Notes under the pieces: generated by a model
The model's database searches: none
Told to the model about the DNA's origin: nothing
Seen by the model: only the letters and a program-made list of their open reading frames with translations
Program-made: the position numbers and the translations under genes
From: Runella rosea
GTDB taxonomy: Bacteria > Bacteroidota > Bacteroidia > Cytophagales > Spirosomataceae
NCBI RefSeq assembly: GCF_003325355.1
Contig: NZ_CP030850.1
Span: 372,001-436,000, forward strand
DNA: 64,000 bases
Reading direction: 5' to 3'
Part shown: one piece after another, positions 20,348 through 24,702 of the stretch
Position numbering within the stretch: position 1 is the stretch's first letter
Layout: each line of letters opens with the position of its first letter

Positions 20348-21097
20348 CTACTGGTTGATTGGAAAGCTAAGTCCGACGTAGAGCATTTTGGAGCGCAATC
20401 GAAAACGTCTATTGTCGTCTATGAGGATATTGTTTGTTTTATATTCGCTCACTGCCAGTAGGTAGCTTACCTTGACCGCAACTCGTTCTGTAATACGCAA
20501 ACGGGCAAATAACTCACTGTTTAGCGTACCTTTTACATGGTCTTGGGGGAATTGAATCGCCAAGCCAGTGGGGCGAGCTTCTTGGTAGGTTTGGTGGAGA
20601 TTTAATGAATCTACTTTATTGAAACCCGACGAACCCAAATAAAAGCCAGAACGGCGTGTTCCTAAGGCAAAACCTAAAATGTCGGCGTTGGCACCAAGGT
20701 CTAATCGGTTGAATAACGATAACTGAAAACCTAGATTAAAATTAAAGGAAGTGATGGATGTTTTGAGTTGAAGTGTGTCAATATTCTTCATAATTATAGG
20801 CGCATTGATGGCCAATCCAGACTTTCCCCGGGTTAGTTCTGATGGGGCAGTTGTGTAATCTAACGTATTGGTTTTCAGATGAGAACCTCTCACTCCCCAA
20901 CCTACTTGGAAAATGCCTTTGCTATCGAGTTTGAGGTATTGATTGTAAAGAAAACCGATATTTAATGACTTATCTTTCCAAGCAACTCCCACATCCATTC
21001 TGGTTTGGATTGGATTAAACAACTGAGCTAATGATGTTTTAGGAAATAATGATAAATAAGTACATACTAATAAGGATAAAAATGCTTTATATCTCAT
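20348..21097 (-). CDS. Putative outer membrane beta-barrel protein
   Basis: 249 residues. A signal peptide (LSLLVCTYLSLFPKTSLAQ) is followed by alternating amphipathic strands through to a C-terminal aromatic/Ile strand (KMLYVGLSFPINQ), the style of small outer membrane barrels in Bacteroidota. Some resemblance to PorP/SprF-like proteins can be seen (alternating strands, RLRSKMLYVGLSF end), but I cannot assign a family. It stands alone on the minus strand with terminator hairpins on both sides. Confidence 0.6.
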   Translation of the reverse strand: MRYKAFLSLLVCTYLSLFPKTSLAQLFNPIQTRMDVGVAWKDKSLNIGFLYNQYLKLDSKGIFQVGWGVRGSHLKTNTLDYTTAPSELTRGKSGLAINAPIIMKNIDTLQLKTSITSFNFNLGFQLSLFNRLDLGANADILGFALGTRRSGFYLGSSGFNKVDSLNLHQTYQEARPTGLAIQFPQDHVKGTLNSELFARLRITERVAVKVSYLLAVSEYKTNNILIDDNRRFRLRSKMLYVGLSFPINQ

Positions 21098-21452
21098 TTT
21101 TGGGCTAATTTTGGTTGGTTTGCTAATAACATTACGTGCAAAAGAATATGTTTATTATTGAATCACAAAAGTTCGAGTGGTTATTTTTATAAAAAACTAA
21201 AAAAGCCAGAGGCAACTGCCTCTGGCTTTTTTTCCTAACCTAACCTATGAGAAAAAATCTTGCACCATTGAGATGCTGATTCAACCAAACCCGTTACAAA
21301 TGTCGTGCCTGATGATTAAATATTTTAGCGTAGAAATACCTGTTTTTCAAAAAACACAAATTTAGTTTCTTCAATTATCCAACGGTTTGCATATCTATTA
21401 CCCCTTCTTTAGCTTGCGGCATTGTTTCACTTTTTTAATCCCTTTTACCAAC
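21098..21452. other. 355-base gap with an orphan terminator and a possible short peptide
   Basis: No normal-sized gene. It holds a strong terminator hairpin at 21200-21233 and, 14 bases after it, an ATG (21247) opening an 11-codon frame (MRKNLAPLRC, stop TGA). The frame that runs into the next gene from 21387 is probably untranslated before 21453. Confidence 0.4.
21200..21233 (+). terminator. Strong orphan intrinsic terminator
   Basis: GCCAGAGGC-AACT-GCCTCTGGC, a perfect 9-base GC-rich stem flanked by five A on the left and seven T on the right, so usable from either side. No plus-strand gene lies directly upstream and the minus-strand gene starts at 21097, so it either ends an unseen transcript or shields that gene and the CPGFCNP cluster from each other. 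Confidence 0.72.
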
Positions 21453-21857
21453 ATGCCAAAAATTGCAGGACGCTTTTTTTCAAAAGCAGAAATCGACAAG
21501 TACCGTGGCGAATTCAAAAAAAAACATCAGCCCTTAGCCCACGAGCCCAAAAATCCAGATGAAAACCGACAGGCAGAATACTTTAGCCGCGAGATTTTAC
21601 AACAACTCCTCGACACTGGCTGCGACGGCCTGCGTATTTACTACGGCGTAGCGCCCGAAACCAACGGAGAAATTGACCCCGCAGGCACAGCCATGATGCG
21701 CCGCCTGTTTCTGGTGCCCGTAAAGATTGACGAAAAAGGCAACGGAAGAGATTTTCAGTTTAAAGCTATCAAAAATACTTCGGGTGAGAAGGATGGAATT
21801 CCAGGAGATGGCGGTGCTGGAGGGGGATTGCCTTGTCCTGGATTTTGTAATCCATAA
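21453..21857 (+). CDS. Unrecognised protein with C-terminal CPGFCNP motif (A)
   Basis: 134 residues from ATG 21453 (MPKIAGRFFSK); an earlier in-frame ATG (21387) would add an unlikely 22 residues. No signal peptide is seen from the chosen start. A charged helical N-terminus precedes a compact core with GLRIYYGVAPETNGEIDPAG and LFLVPVKIDEKGNGRD, a Gly-rich linker (GDGGAGGG) and the last eight residues PCPGFCNP. The downstream lipoprotein 22587-23015 shares this plan: GLRFYF, LVFVGIDKDGRD, DGGAGG and an identical PCPGFCNP end. I do not know the function. It ends 6 bases before the membrane protein gene, so they are probably coupled. Confidence 0.78.
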   Translation: MPKIAGRFFSKAEIDKYRGEFKKKHQPLAHEPKNPDENRQAEYFSREILQQLLDTGCDGLRIYYGVAPETNGEIDPAGTAMMRRLFLVPVKIDEKGNGRDFQFKAIKNTSGEKDGIPGDGGAGGGLPCPGFCNP

Positions 21858-21863
21858 AATTTT

Positions 21864-22517
21864 ATGATTACTTTATTTCTTGCATATTTTGCTGATTTAA
21901 GTATAATCATACCGACAATTATTGCAATAATTAGGAGGGGCTATTTTAGTACTGATATTTACAAACTAATAGGTATCTATGGTTTTTTAACACTACTGAG
22001 AAATACAGTTACCCTTGTAATGAATCAGTTAGGAGTGTATAATATTTACATCTATAACTGGCATAATTTGTTGGAGTTTATTCTTATTGCAATCATTTAC
22101 AAGATTGCTGTAAAAAATCACTATTTCAAATATTTAGCAATTGGGGGCATTCTTATTGTAATATGTACCGCATTTTTGGATTACAATACACTACTTAATG
22201 CCAAAACAAAAGACTTTAATCAATTTTCCTACAACGTATCAGGCTTTATTGCAATCGTTTTTATTCTTTTTTACTTTTATCAACTTTTGAAAAGCCTCCA
22301 CGTTCCTAATTTGACAAGATACCCTTTGTTTTGGTTTAGTGCTGGTGCTTTACTTTATTATGCCGGTACCATATTTTCTTATATTTTTATTGAAACTACT
22401 TTTAACAGTACTATTGAATTGAGGCAACAATATTGGATGATTGATGCAGTGCTTTCCATTGTGTTCAGTCTATTTCTGTGTTTTTCCATTTGGTACATGA
22501 AGCCAGCAAAGGATTAA
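21864..22517 (+). CDS. Seven-helix membrane protein of unknown function
   Basis: 217 residues with about seven hydrophobic helices (roughly residues 3-23, 33-53, 66-86, 91-109, 126-145, 156-178, 190-212). Polar or aromatic residues inside or beside helices (NWHNLLE, FWFSAGALLYYAG) are reminiscent of receptor or sensor modules but no named family is recognised. The gene is clearly richer in A and T than its neighbours. It starts 6 bases after CPGFCNP gene A and is followed by CPGFCNP gene B, so the three probably form one unit. Confidence 0.8.
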   Translation: MITLFLAYFADLSIIIPTIIAIIRRGYFSTDIYKLIGIYGFLTLLRNTVTLVMNQLGVYNIYIYNWHNLLEFILIAIIYKIAVKNHYFKYLAIGGILIVICTAFLDYNTLLNAKTKDFNQFSYNVSGFIAIVFILFYFYQLLKSLHVPNLTRYPLFWFSAGALLYYAGTIFSYIFIETTFNSTIELRQQYWMIDAVLSIVFSLFLCFSIWYMKPAKD

Positions 22518-22586
22518 GTATAAAATAGTTAATTCACAGCTTTTATAACTTGAACTAATCTGTTAACTTAAAACCAACCAACTTTC

Positions 22587-23015
22587 ATGAAAAAAATGCT
22601 TACTACCCTCTGCCTTGCGGCGTTTGTATTGGCCTGTCAAAAAGATCAGGATGTGAATGTTACACCTCAAAAAACATTGCTGACAGCCGAAGAAGCGCGC
22701 GTAGCTGCGAGTATTGGTACGTTAGTGCCCTTCAAAGAGGCAAAAGCCCAAATGGCCGCCTTCCAAAAAACAAGCCCCGATGAAATCCGAGGAGTAGCCT
22801 TTGGGAAAGACGTTATTGAAAAACTAATGAACCAAAAAGGAGTAGTGGGGTTGCGATTTTATTTCACAAAAGATAATGATGGTAAAAATTCATTGGTGTT
22901 TGTAGGCATTGATAAAGATGGAAGAGACATTACGTCGCTTGCAAATGCCCGCACAACCGAGGACGGCGGCGCAGGTGGAAATGCCTATCCTTGCCCAGGA
23001 TTTTGTAATCCTTAA
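22587..23015 (+). CDS. Lipoprotein with C-terminal CPGFCNP motif (B)
   Basis: 142 residues. The start MKKMLTTLCLAAFVLACQKD is a lipoprotein signal with lipobox VLAC, so the protein should be lipid-anchored outside the cytoplasm. The core GVVGLRFYFTKDNDGKNSLVFVGIDKDGRD and the ending DGGAGG..YPCPGFCNP match protein A encoded 700 bases upstream. The two terminal cysteines (C-P-G-F-C) may form a disulphide or bind a ligand; this is inference. A terminator follows, closing the three-gene unit. Confidence 0.8.
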   Translation: MKKMLTTLCLAAFVLACQKDQDVNVTPQKTLLTAEEARVAASIGTLVPFKEAKAQMAAFQKTSPDEIRGVAFGKDVIEKLMNQKGVVGLRFYFTKDNDGKNSLVFVGIDKDGRDITSLANARTTEDGGAGGNAYPCPGFCNP

Positions 23016-23069: not shown

Positions 23070-23098
23070 ACCGAGCGAGTCACTCGCTCGGTTTTTTT
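23070..23098 (+). terminator. Intrinsic terminator closing the CPGFCNP cluster
   Basis: ACCGAGCGAG-TCA-CTCGCTCGGT, a perfect 10-base stem with a 3-base loop followed by seven T, 55 bases after the lipoprotein stop. Confidence 0.85.
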
Positions 23099-23181: not shown

Positions 23182-24012
23182 ATGGAATCTCCCTATGTCA
23201 TCATTATCGGGACGGGCATCATGCTGATTATGGCAATGTTCATTGTGCTGTTTGTGATGTATTATCAACGCAAGCAGATTGAACAACAGATGCGCGTCAA
23301 AGACATGGAAGCCGAATTTCAACGCAAGCTTCTGGAGGTTTCTATGGCTTCAACCGAAGCCGAGCGCCGGCGCATTGCTCAGGATTTGCACGATGATATT
23401 GGGGCGTTGTTGTCGGTTACAAAGTTGACATTCAATGCTTTATACGGTCAGCTAGGCTCCAAAGATCAAGCCGAGCGGCTCGCCAAACAGGTACGAGAAG
23501 CCCTCGACGAAACCATCAGCCACGTGCGGCGCATCAGTCGCGAACTCGTGCCTACCACGTTGGAGCGCTTTGGGCTGCCAGCAGCGTTGCAGGAATTTGC
23601 AGCCAAAAGTATCGGCAGCCATACGGTTCGGATTACGTTTGGCTACTCGGGAGACGAAAATATACGTTTGGAGCCGAAAGTAGAACTGATGCTGTACCGG
23701 GTAGCGCAGGAACTTATCAACAACGCGCTCAAACATTCAGGCGGAACCAACGTTCACGTTCAGCTGTCGTTACCGCCCGAGACCTTTGGCTTGGTTGTAG
23801 AAGACAACGGCCACGGGTTTAATTTGCAAGAGGCCCACACGCGTCCTTCGCCGGGGTTGGGGCTAGACAGCATTGAAGGGCGGTTGCGGGTTATCAACGG
23901 AAAGATTAATTACGAAACAGGTCCCCAAAAAGGTTGTCGTGCGGTGGTAGAACTCAGGCAGCTGGTGCTGTTTGAGAAAGCAAAAAAACGAGACGTAGAA
24001 AAAGCACAATAA
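23182..24012 (+). CDS. NarL-type sensor histidine kinase with one membrane helix
   Basis: 276 residues. One N-terminal membrane helix (about 4-27) is followed directly by a coiled coil and the HisKA_3 domain with phospho-accepting His70 in AQDLHDDIGALLS, then the HATPase domain: N-box ELINNALKHSGG, VVEDNGHGF and GLGLDSIEGRL. There is no extracellular or PAS/HAMP input domain, so the signal must arrive through the membrane helix or a partner protein. It is paired with a LuxR-type regulator 39 bases downstream. Confidence 0.93.
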   Translation: MESPYVIIIGTGIMLIMAMFIVLFVMYYQRKQIEQQMRVKDMEAEFQRKLLEVSMASTEAERRRIAQDLHDDIGALLSVTKLTFNALYGQLGSKDQAERLAKQVREALDETISHVRRISRELVPTTLERFGLPAALQEFAAKSIGSHTVRITFGYSGDENIRLEPKVELMLYRVAQELINNALKHSGGTNVHVQLSLPPETFGLVVEDNGHGFNLQEAHTRPSPGLGLDSIEGRLRVINGKINYETGPQKGCRAVVELRQLVLFEKAKKRDVEKAQ

Positions 24013-24051: not shown

Positions 24052-24702
24052 ATGGAAAAGATTAAACTCGTAATAGCAGATGATCATAACCTTTTCAGAA
24101 AAGGGATGACGGCTATGTTGAATCAAATCGGTGATTTTGAGTTGATTGGGGAAGCCGCCAACGGCAAAGAATTGTTGGATCTGCTGGCGCGCGTCACGCC
24201 CGACATTGCCCTGCTGGACCTTCAAATGCCCGTAATGGATGGGGTCGAAACGACCGAGCACATTCAGTCGCAGTTTCCACACGTCAAAGTGATTATCGTT
24301 TCCATGCACGAAGAAGACCGTTTCATCATTCACCTGCTTGAAAAGGGCGTCAACGGTTATCTGCTGAAAGACTCCGAGCCGGGAGAAGTCGAAAACGCCA
24401 TTCGCCGTGTGATGTCTGATGGTTTTTATTATAGCGATTTTGTGTCTAAAGCCTTGCACCGCAAAGTAATCACGCGGGCCACGCCTCCAGCGCCGCTGTT
24501 TAATAGCAAAGTACAAATCTCTCCGCGCGAAATGGAAGTATTACAACTGCTCTGCGAGGGCCTTTCAACGCTAGAAATCAGCGAAAAGCTATTTGTGAGC
24601 CCCCGCACGGTGGAAGGCCACCGGCTGCGGTTGTTGGAAAAAACGGGCACCAAAAATACTGCGGGGCTGGTGGCATACGCGTTCAAAAACGATTTGCTTT
24701 AG
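24052..24702 (+). CDS. NarL/LuxR-family response regulator
   Basis: 216 residues. Receiver domain with acidic ADDHNLF, phospho-acceptor Asp56 in LLDLQMP and switch lysine in GYLLKDS; then a LuxR-type helix-turn-helix (ISPREMEVLQLLCEGLS, LFVSPRTVEGHRLRLLEKTG). It should be phosphorylated by the kinase upstream and act as a transcription regulator; targets are unknown. It is convergent with the desaturase gene, 14 bases apart. Confidence 0.95.
   Translation: MEKIKLVIADDHNLFRKGMTAMLNQIGDFELIGEAANGKELLDLLARVTPDIALLDLQMPVMDGVETTEHIQSQFPHVKVIIVSMHEEDRFIIHLLEKGVNGYLLKDSEPGEVENAIRRVMSDGFYYSDFVSKALHRKVITRATPPAPLFNSKVQISPREMEVLQLLCEGLSTLEISEKLFVSPRTVEGHRLRLLEKTGTKNTAGLVAYAFKNDLL

Follow-up and report, generated by a model that had tools for sequence, protein, structure and literature searches.

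A putative Bacteroidota signalling cassette joining proline/cysteine-tailed proteins and a seven-helix membrane protein to a two-component system

Introduction

What does a short proline- and cysteine-rich C-terminus do when it closes two related proteins encoded on either side of a gene for a membrane protein? This question is raised by a locus of Runella rosea found in a stretch of 64,000 nucleotides (nt; positions 372,001 to 436,000 of contig NZ_CP030850.1), hereafter the window, in which the genes for protein A, for a membrane protein with seven transmembrane helices (7TM), M, and for lipoprotein B follow one another. A first look at the letters of this DNA, here called the sequence-only reading, had taken the three genes for a unit closed by a terminator, and had suggested for their tail (PCPGFCNP in both A and B) a recognised, processed or modified C-terminus, perhaps a ligand or a redox tag for the 7TM protein.

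Because a kinase and a regulator are encoded downstream, the locus is read here as a signalling cassette of Bacteroidota, widespread and apparently unnamed, that comprises a tail-tagged protein, the 7TM protein M, a HisKA_3 kinase and a NarL-type regulator, and in which the best reading of the tail would be that of a ligand for M. Such a cassette would link a kinase-regulator pair with two protein families that lack models (A and M), and would offer a testable signal source for kinases that lack a sensor domain of their own. Moreover, the tail together with M gives a sequence handle for placing many hypothetical genes, some of them tied to Collar-domain genes of unknown role.

Recurrence of the cassette in the phylum

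Loci and genomes of the Bacteroidota sample carry here L and G numbers, respectively. Searching with the single A sequence at E 0.01 gave matches in 62 of 150 genomes of the family, and an A profile at E 0.001 reached 54 of 241 genomes of the order and 20 of 296 of the phylum. A broader A profile found 61 places in 42 of these 296 phylum genomes (24 of 139 genera), and an M profile at least 139 places in at least 62 genomes and at least 38 genera, a census that is a lower bound with at most ten candidates scored per genome. An M-profile place lies downstream, on the same strand and within 1.5 kb, of 55 of the 61 A-profile places, and most homologues keep both the tail and the 7TM neighbour; loss of either in most genomes would have refuted the sequence-only reading. 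Among the remaining six, the A genes of G558 and G234 have M directly behind them, beyond the matches listed by the M search; window B and the G382 place are themselves found directly behind the M of their own cassette; in G182 an unrecognised open reading frame (ORF) with four transmembrane helices follows, with two kinases and a recognised M farther on in the cluster; and the G639 place is at a contig edge.

Gene neighbourhoods were compared in 100 loci, consisting of 20 stretches with an M that has no A-profile match upstream and 80 of 117 M regions (a single one from the first 20, which are mostly profile seeds, and 79 from the remaining 97). M ORFs number 107 and occur in every locus but L259; two of them are genes counted twice, leaving 105 distinct ones. 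Within 3.2 kb downstream, 93 of these 105 M genes are followed by a kinase, 83 by a regulator and 82 by both, with median gaps of 11 nt between A and M and of −8 nt between M and the kinase, these last two genes usually overlapping in relatives. The order in relatives from the same family is A-M-kinase-regulator, with a duplicated form, A-M-A'-M'-kinase-regulator, in L045-L048. In this line, the A-M link of the layout first proposed is conserved, and B turned out not to be a fixed part of it, being present in the window and L037 cassettes and missing from L036 and L038-L040, which keep the other four genes. A contig from a metagenome-assembled genome of Runella sp. (L004) shows M (cut off), a B-type protein, the kinase and the regulator in the same order, its B being 76% identical. 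The Spirosoma oryzicola plasmid NZ_CP089539.1 encodes a pair of hypothetical proteins (WP_232562942.1 and WP_232562943.1), the first ending in ...VCPPQCDEESPLFIASDQPCDC, followed by a histidine kinase, a response regulator and three genes annotated as "tail fiber protein".

A full-text literature search, judged by titles and abstract openings and with subscription papers mostly outside its coverage, apparently returned no paper describing this cassette. As for known domains, one that explains both the tail and the 7TM neighbour had been named beforehand as another outcome refuting the sequence-only reading; the scans found none for either, and those A, B and M proteins that were scanned gave no usable Pfam, NCBIfam, PDB-sequence or Rfam family (38 near A/B proteins against Pfam, 37 broad A proteins against NCBIfam, and M against both). 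The Pfam scan also took in, from the 52 upstream proteins missed by the A profile that are described below, those of L175 and L184, plus the second lipoprotein of L184 and the A protein of L277. Matches below E 0.1, each to one member (among them PA5502_lipo, 0.0085; SbtA-type RiPP precursor, 0.018; POPDC1-3, 0.012; PRK14770, 0.0022), were far below the cut-off wherever one was printed and were read as chance. The cassette is thus filed as a two-component system with accessory proteins, where A and M are families for which the searched libraries contain no model.

A C-terminal tail shared by variable proteins

To what extent the tail belongs to the cassette could be asked with M as bait, a choice of upstream proteins in which the tail had no part. 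At 78 of the 139 M places there is no A-profile match within 2.5 kb upstream; most of the 100 M loci have before M a gene for a protein of ~70 to 370 residues with a Pro- or Pro/Cys-rich tail, such as CPPDCGGDEIQ, PCPPLCPLNYNI, NHGALIPPDSVKTESF, NYGNMGPPPRMVYPSESN, VPPYGGS or YDLGNLRP. From 99 distinct upstream proteins, 89 were kept (60-400 residues, gap to M of −110 to 150 nt), a set that includes near-identical relatives, and is therefore not fully independent, as well as probably unrelated genes (e.g. L208, L217, L245) and, in L189, probably no gene at all. A PP pair occurs in the last 20 residues of 59 of these 89 proteins, compared with 11 of 232 other ORFs of the same loci; kinases (0/97), regulators (0/95) and M itself (1/106) hardly ever have it, and internal 20-residue windows of the same upstream proteins contain it in 4.2% of 624 cases. 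It is likewise found in 36 of the 52 upstream proteins missed by the A profile, and when CP is also accepted the count rises to 73 of 89. Six distinct M genes (seven of the 107 ORFs) have no upstream candidate ORF, namely those of L176, L209 and L263, the second M of L180 and of L194, and one gene seen in both L206 and L260. Altogether, the bodies of the upstream proteins vary greatly and the C-terminal Pro/Cys tail is usually what they have in common. Natural tail-less cases of A stand before M in L193, L196 and L240, in which the Pro/Cys tail was either lost or never present.

Over the last eight codons of ten near A genes, codon-pair differences amount to 140 synonymous and 29 nonsynonymous, compared with 1447 and 1688 in the rest of the genes, and four B genes give 24 and 6 in the tail against 205 and 246 elsewhere. 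The tail acts, then, at the protein level, its codons being constrained in near relatives, and the suggestion of a functional, recognised C-terminus is supported. At the DNA level, a PCPGFCNP pattern with up to one mismatch has only two sites in the window, the ends of A and B (0.08 expected).

The likeness of A and B reaches past their common end and their common DGGAGG: in searches of their own genome, a B query found A at E 0.0018 and an A query found B at 5.1e-4, so that the relationship seen at first sight, including that of the cores, holds at the places first given for A, M and B. Protein B starts with MKKMLTTLCLAAFVLACQ, its lipobox having been recognised by eye, and shows Val (GVVGLRFYF) where A-type proteins have their core Cys. 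It is a second A-type protein, limited to its lineage, and L270 repeats that order independently. There, an A' protein encoded behind M and 148 nt before the kinase keeps the tail, with YDGTRP(S/C)PP common to it and the A of the same locus; similarly, B retains its tail though its gene follows M, 166 nt and a hairpin separating it from the kinase. Tails kept behind M speak against a purely cis-acting translation signal. Loss of the core Cys in exported forms was considered as a rule and dropped, L080, L082, L083 and L102 looking exported and yet keeping the Cys.

How invariant the tail is depends on the distance. The Cys-rich end that had been called invariant is indeed identical in A and B and occurs as CPxxC in 46 of 49 near relatives, and a broad A alignment of 37 rows shows conservation of 90% or more at C128, P129 and C132; farther relatives carry Pro-rich and more variable tails instead. 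Even among near relatives, L015, L016 and L020 have PIPP(Y/F)G in place of CPxxC, and in L016/L274 the B copy still ends in PCPGFCNP despite the changed A tail. Identity of tails within a cassette was therefore given up as proof of a common docking site: it holds in the window and in L270 and is contradicted by L274. A tandem A-A fusion of 250 residues occurs in L090 and L103, with an inner tail apparently decayed (LRPAWCGAANVLN) and a full outer one (DCPPWCSEVNSLNG).

The seven-helix protein M

The description of M as a seven-helix membrane protein is supported by its charges. Over 159 sequences, the mean number of Lys plus Arg per loop runs 0.11, 3.05, 1.04, 3.01, 0.90, 2.30, 1.39 and 2.67, an alternation that supports a 7TM protein with its N-terminus predicted outside and its C-terminus inside. 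A weak AlphaFold2 (AF2) model built from two sequences (predicted local distance difference test, pLDDT, 62.9) agrees, showing seven long helices plus a short one of five residues. Fold searches with this weak model returned mainly 7TM rhodopsins and G protein-coupled receptors (GPCRs) as top matches, none at E 0.001, with a best query-normalised template-modelling score (TMq) of 0.67 to cryorhodopsin, 0.58 to Ste2 and 0.49 to adhesion GPCRs; a shallow seven-helix model may drift to such folds, so that little weight is placed on the resemblance.

The best conserved positions of M past its start are G161, F156, N60 and W157. No conserved His, Cys or Asp was found among the 159 sequences, the highest columns reaching 0.20, 0.12 and 0.21, respectively, and K213 (K 0.60, R next) is the only late Lys among the 25 best conserved columns; in the weak model it sits behind helix 7 (residues 183-210). 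No sequence relative of M was found among PDB chains, and in Pfam scans of 38 and 32 M proteins the LiaF, 7TMR-DISM, HisKA_7TM, LytS and AgrB-type models were unmatched at E 0.1.

The number of M genes varies. In L268 and L269 three M genes stand between a single A gene and the kinase, an order that suggests either hetero-oligomers of M or repeated duplication. The genome of the window itself has three more M genes (G000:C1:2724456, 3783007 and 2656717; L165-L167), each with its own upstream gene and, in L165 and L167, also with a kinase and a regulator.

Membrane side of the A-type proteins

By a simple hydrophobicity rule, an N-terminal signal is missing from 60 of the 89 upstream proteins; 12 are classed as lipoproteins, a further 12 carry an exported-type segment (some of them also lipoproteins by eye), three have an inward-facing anchor and two are unclear. 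On a tree of 87 M rows (180-280 residues, with an accepted upstream protein), this export class changed at least 13 times, compared with a mean of 23.8 and a minimum of 19 in 200 shuffles, and the loop charges of M are much alike whether A is exported or not. The earlier placement of A inside and B outside the membrane is plausible from sequence, and the combination seen in the window, A without a leader and B as a lipoprotein, would then mirror a switch that was apparently repeated often.

Layout of the window locus

The features of the locus are collected in Table 1. Kinase and regulator domains are all past their curated cut-offs (HisKA_3, 9.2e-13; HATPase_c, 7.8e-12; Response_reg, 3.4e-26; GerE, 3.6e-15), and both proteins form a two-component system with a HisKA_3 kinase and a NarL-type regulator. 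A domain scan found no separate sensor domain in the window kinase.

Table 1. Features of the cassette and its surroundings in the window.
Feature	Coordinates	Strand	Description
Divergent neighbour ORF	20348..21097	-	249 aa; signal-bearing and outer-membrane-like by eye; no Pfam match
Protein A	21453..21857	+	134 aa; ATG at 21453, stop ends at 21857; no signal peptide by eye; core GLRIYYG..LFLVPV, Gly-rich linker, C-terminal PCPGFCNP
Tail of A, PCPGFCNP	21831..21854	+	protein-level constraint (codon-pair comparison, ten relatives)
M	21864..22517	+	217 aa; predicted seven TM helices, N-out/C-in; start 6 nt past the A stop codon
Protein B	22587..23015	+	142 aa; A-type lipoprotein, lipobox LACQ by eye
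Tail of B, PCPGFCNP	22989..23012	+	residues as in the A tail; three synonymous codon differences from A
Terminator-like hairpin, B/kinase intergenic	23070..23092	+	10 pairs, 7 of them G-C, then six T
Histidine kinase	23182..24012	+	one N-terminal TM; HisKA_3 + HATPase_c
Response regulator	24052..24702	+	receiver + GerE; LuxR/NarL type

Of the proposal that a terminator closes the unit, the hairpin behind B is confirmed, and the closing is not, as the unit goes on with the kinase and the regulator. A hairpin scan gave six terminator-like sites compared with 5.1 in shuffles, a count that is itself not above chance. A second, strong hairpin (21199-21232; 15 pairs, then T on the minus strand) sits between the starts of the outer-membrane-like ORF (21097) and A (21453); a terminator is unexpected at this location, and the hairpin may mark where a short transcript stops.

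Candidate output genes

Collar-domain genes (PF07484) occur in 24 of the 62 M-bearing genomes, and seven of 32 Collar clusters are found no farther than 0.6 kb from an A gene, each of the seven being divergent; uniform placement would leave 0.16 clusters within 3 kb of a cassette. The divergent clusters (L207, L212, L214, L227, L231, L270 and L277) represent seven genomes, G639 being by coordinates the seventh. On the Spirosoma plasmid the Collar genes are instead downstream of the cassette, the domain being found in the first "tail fiber protein" gene. It is possible from these positions that Collar-domain clusters are output genes of the cassette, and the same may apply to the divergent outer-membrane-like ORF of the window; similar ORFs, also divergent, are seen in relatives' loci of the Runella type.

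Proposed mechanism and alternatives

We propose a four-protein signalling cassette in which the tail docks on M and M controls the kinase, a reading to which we give a probability of roughly 55%. M would serve as sensor or receptor and control the kinase within the membrane, and the variable body of A or B would report a condition, such as a ligand, an export state or the state of the envelope. The Pro/Cys tail would be the common plug which, docked on M, sets the kinase on or off, and the regulator would then act on neighbouring genes for surface proteins, that is, the Collar clusters in several genomes and perhaps the outer-membrane-like ORF in the window. In this scheme one and the same M may be reached by B from the periplasmic side, and by A from the cytoplasm or after some form of export. 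A bolder version, tentative and clearly less probable, would see a phylum-wide receptor class, in which the Pro/Cys tail of a partner protein serves as peptide agonist or antagonist, cytoplasmic or lipid-anchored, to switch a 7TM protein feeding a sensor-less kinase, the A bodies adapting the module to different inputs.

Several observations weigh against the docking of the tail on M. A-type proteins are predicted on both sides of the membrane (60 without signal and 24 apparently exported, by a home-made classifier), which is awkward for a single docking site on M; how one M serves tails on both sides is the main question of the model. Neither PP nor CP is found in 16 of the 89 upstream proteins, including clear A-profile matches (L193, L196, L240) together with ends such as NLWP, QIYP, LGGLKP and LGNLRP and unrelated-looking ORFs (L208, L217, L245), and the near-identical relatives in this set make its counts overstate independence. 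Within the single cassette of L274 the tails do not match, with PIPPFGQ on A and PCPGFCNP on B. No kinase follows 12 of the 105 distinct M genes, and 23 of 105 lack the full pair, within 3.2 kb downstream in the stretch covered; in the window, the terminator-like hairpin parts the kinase from B. The AF2 model of A (pLDDT 45.8) was too poor for a fold search, and one Glu column of M reaches 0.43. Finally, the Collar link was first spotted in loci of the same genomes and is thus not an independent test, and operon partnership alone would also yield much of the co-occurrence.

The alternative that survives best, unlikely as we hold it to be, takes A for a precursor whose cut-off tail, perhaps with a disulphide in the Cys lineages, is a peptide signal, secreted or periplasmic; M would be its exporter, processor or receptor, and the kinase and regulator would give the response, as in agr-type quorum sensing. 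The short tail at the extreme C-terminus past a Gly-rich linker, the variable middle residues of CPxxC and the presence of a membrane protein, a kinase and a regulator in one operon would suit it; however, M has neither the conserved Cys nor the conserved His of a peptidase (columns of at most 0.12 and 0.20) and no significant Pfam match, no regular peptidase or transporter stood out by eye among the neighbours, the body of A is conserved too, and B is an anchored lipoprotein.

More improbable still is that the Pro-rich end acts as a translation-arrest sequence, ribosomes stalled at the end of A setting the translation of M. The median of 11 nt between the end of A and M would suit such control, and stable structure is slightly enriched at M starts (z < −2 in 12% of 90, compared with 4% of 97 kinase and 2% of 88 A starts), although the mean z at M starts is just −0.35. 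Arrest peptides that act as monitoring substrates carry an N-terminal export or membrane signal, which is missing in 60 of the 89 upstream proteins; moreover, the gene that follows encodes no Sec/YidC component, and the tails of B and of the L270 A' are followed, 166 and 148 nt off, by the kinase.

About equally improbable is a role of A as a mere assembly factor or co-translated stabiliser of M with no signalling of its own, to which the very tight A-M coupling and the varying numbers of A and M (as in the A-M-M-M-kinase order of L268) would be congenial, while B-type copies, lipoprotein forms and the strong divergence of A bodies suggest a condition-specific role. A redox or metal switch, with CPxxC reporting the thiol state to the kinase, draws on the conservation of C128, P129 and C132 in the broad A alignment and is no better placed: the Cys pair is missing in 53 of 87 cassette tails, which makes the redox tag once suggested unlikely as a general role, PIPP(Y/F)G replaces it in three near relatives, and M offers no conserved Cys as exchange partner.

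Comparison with known systems

Some 7TM families can be set aside by their residues. Microbial rhodopsins have a conserved retinal-binding Lys in helix 7, and the only late, well-conserved Lys of M, K213, lies behind that helix in the weak model. AgrB-type membrane peptidases have conserved catalytic His and Cys; M leaves their profile unmatched, with His at most 0.20 and Cys at most 0.12. Likewise, CREST 7TM hydrolases keep metal-binding residues such as His and Asp, and M was rejected as one of them with columns of at most 0.20 and 0.21, its Glu column of 0.43 notwithstanding. The comparison family is that treated in PMC3146951.

With the RAPP and NAP-stop arrest peptides, described with a Pro-rich C-terminus encoded just before a partner gene (PMC10987492, PMC12992588), the cassette shares a conserved C-terminal motif directly before the next gene (A-M); it differs in that the tail is also found behind M (B, the A' of L270), that most tailed proteins lack an N-terminal signal and that the partner is not a Sec/YidC gene. 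In L265 and L267 (family f19), A is immediately preceded by a gene that looks by eye like secDF, as does the ORF chosen upstream of M in L208; PMC10987492 describes upstream ORFs of Bacteroidota that have a terminal Pro and precede secDF.

Sensors of the 7TMR-DISM, HisKA_7TM and LytS types also have a seven-helix module that feeds a kinase, as exemplified by the LytS-type BtsS, a 7TM receptor for pyruvate (PMC10653868). In contrast to them, M is an ORF separate from the kinase, matches none of their models at E 0.1 and has a partner gene in front. A likeness to peptide- or tethered-agonist GPCRs would concern only the way of working, with a predicted 7TM, N-out/C-in protein; the fold resemblance of its weak model is weak, with no match at E 0.001, no sequence relative was found among PDB chains, and a G protein is not proposed. 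In that limited sense, the cassette could be a counterpart, in bacteria, of receptors with protein ligands.

By analogy, the nearest working parallel is the LiaFSR system. LiaS and LiaR are of the HisKA_3 and NarL types, respectively, and VraT is the accessory membrane protein of the VraTSR system. In both LiaFSR and VraTSR, as in the cassette, a kinase, a regulator and an accessory membrane protein come from one operon. LiaF inhibits LiaRS signalling, as described in PMC3543457. The cassette differs from these systems in that M is a predicted 7TM protein with no significant Pfam match, not a LiaF homologue by profile, and in that, as found here in Bacteroidota, it adds the tail-tagged proteins A and B.

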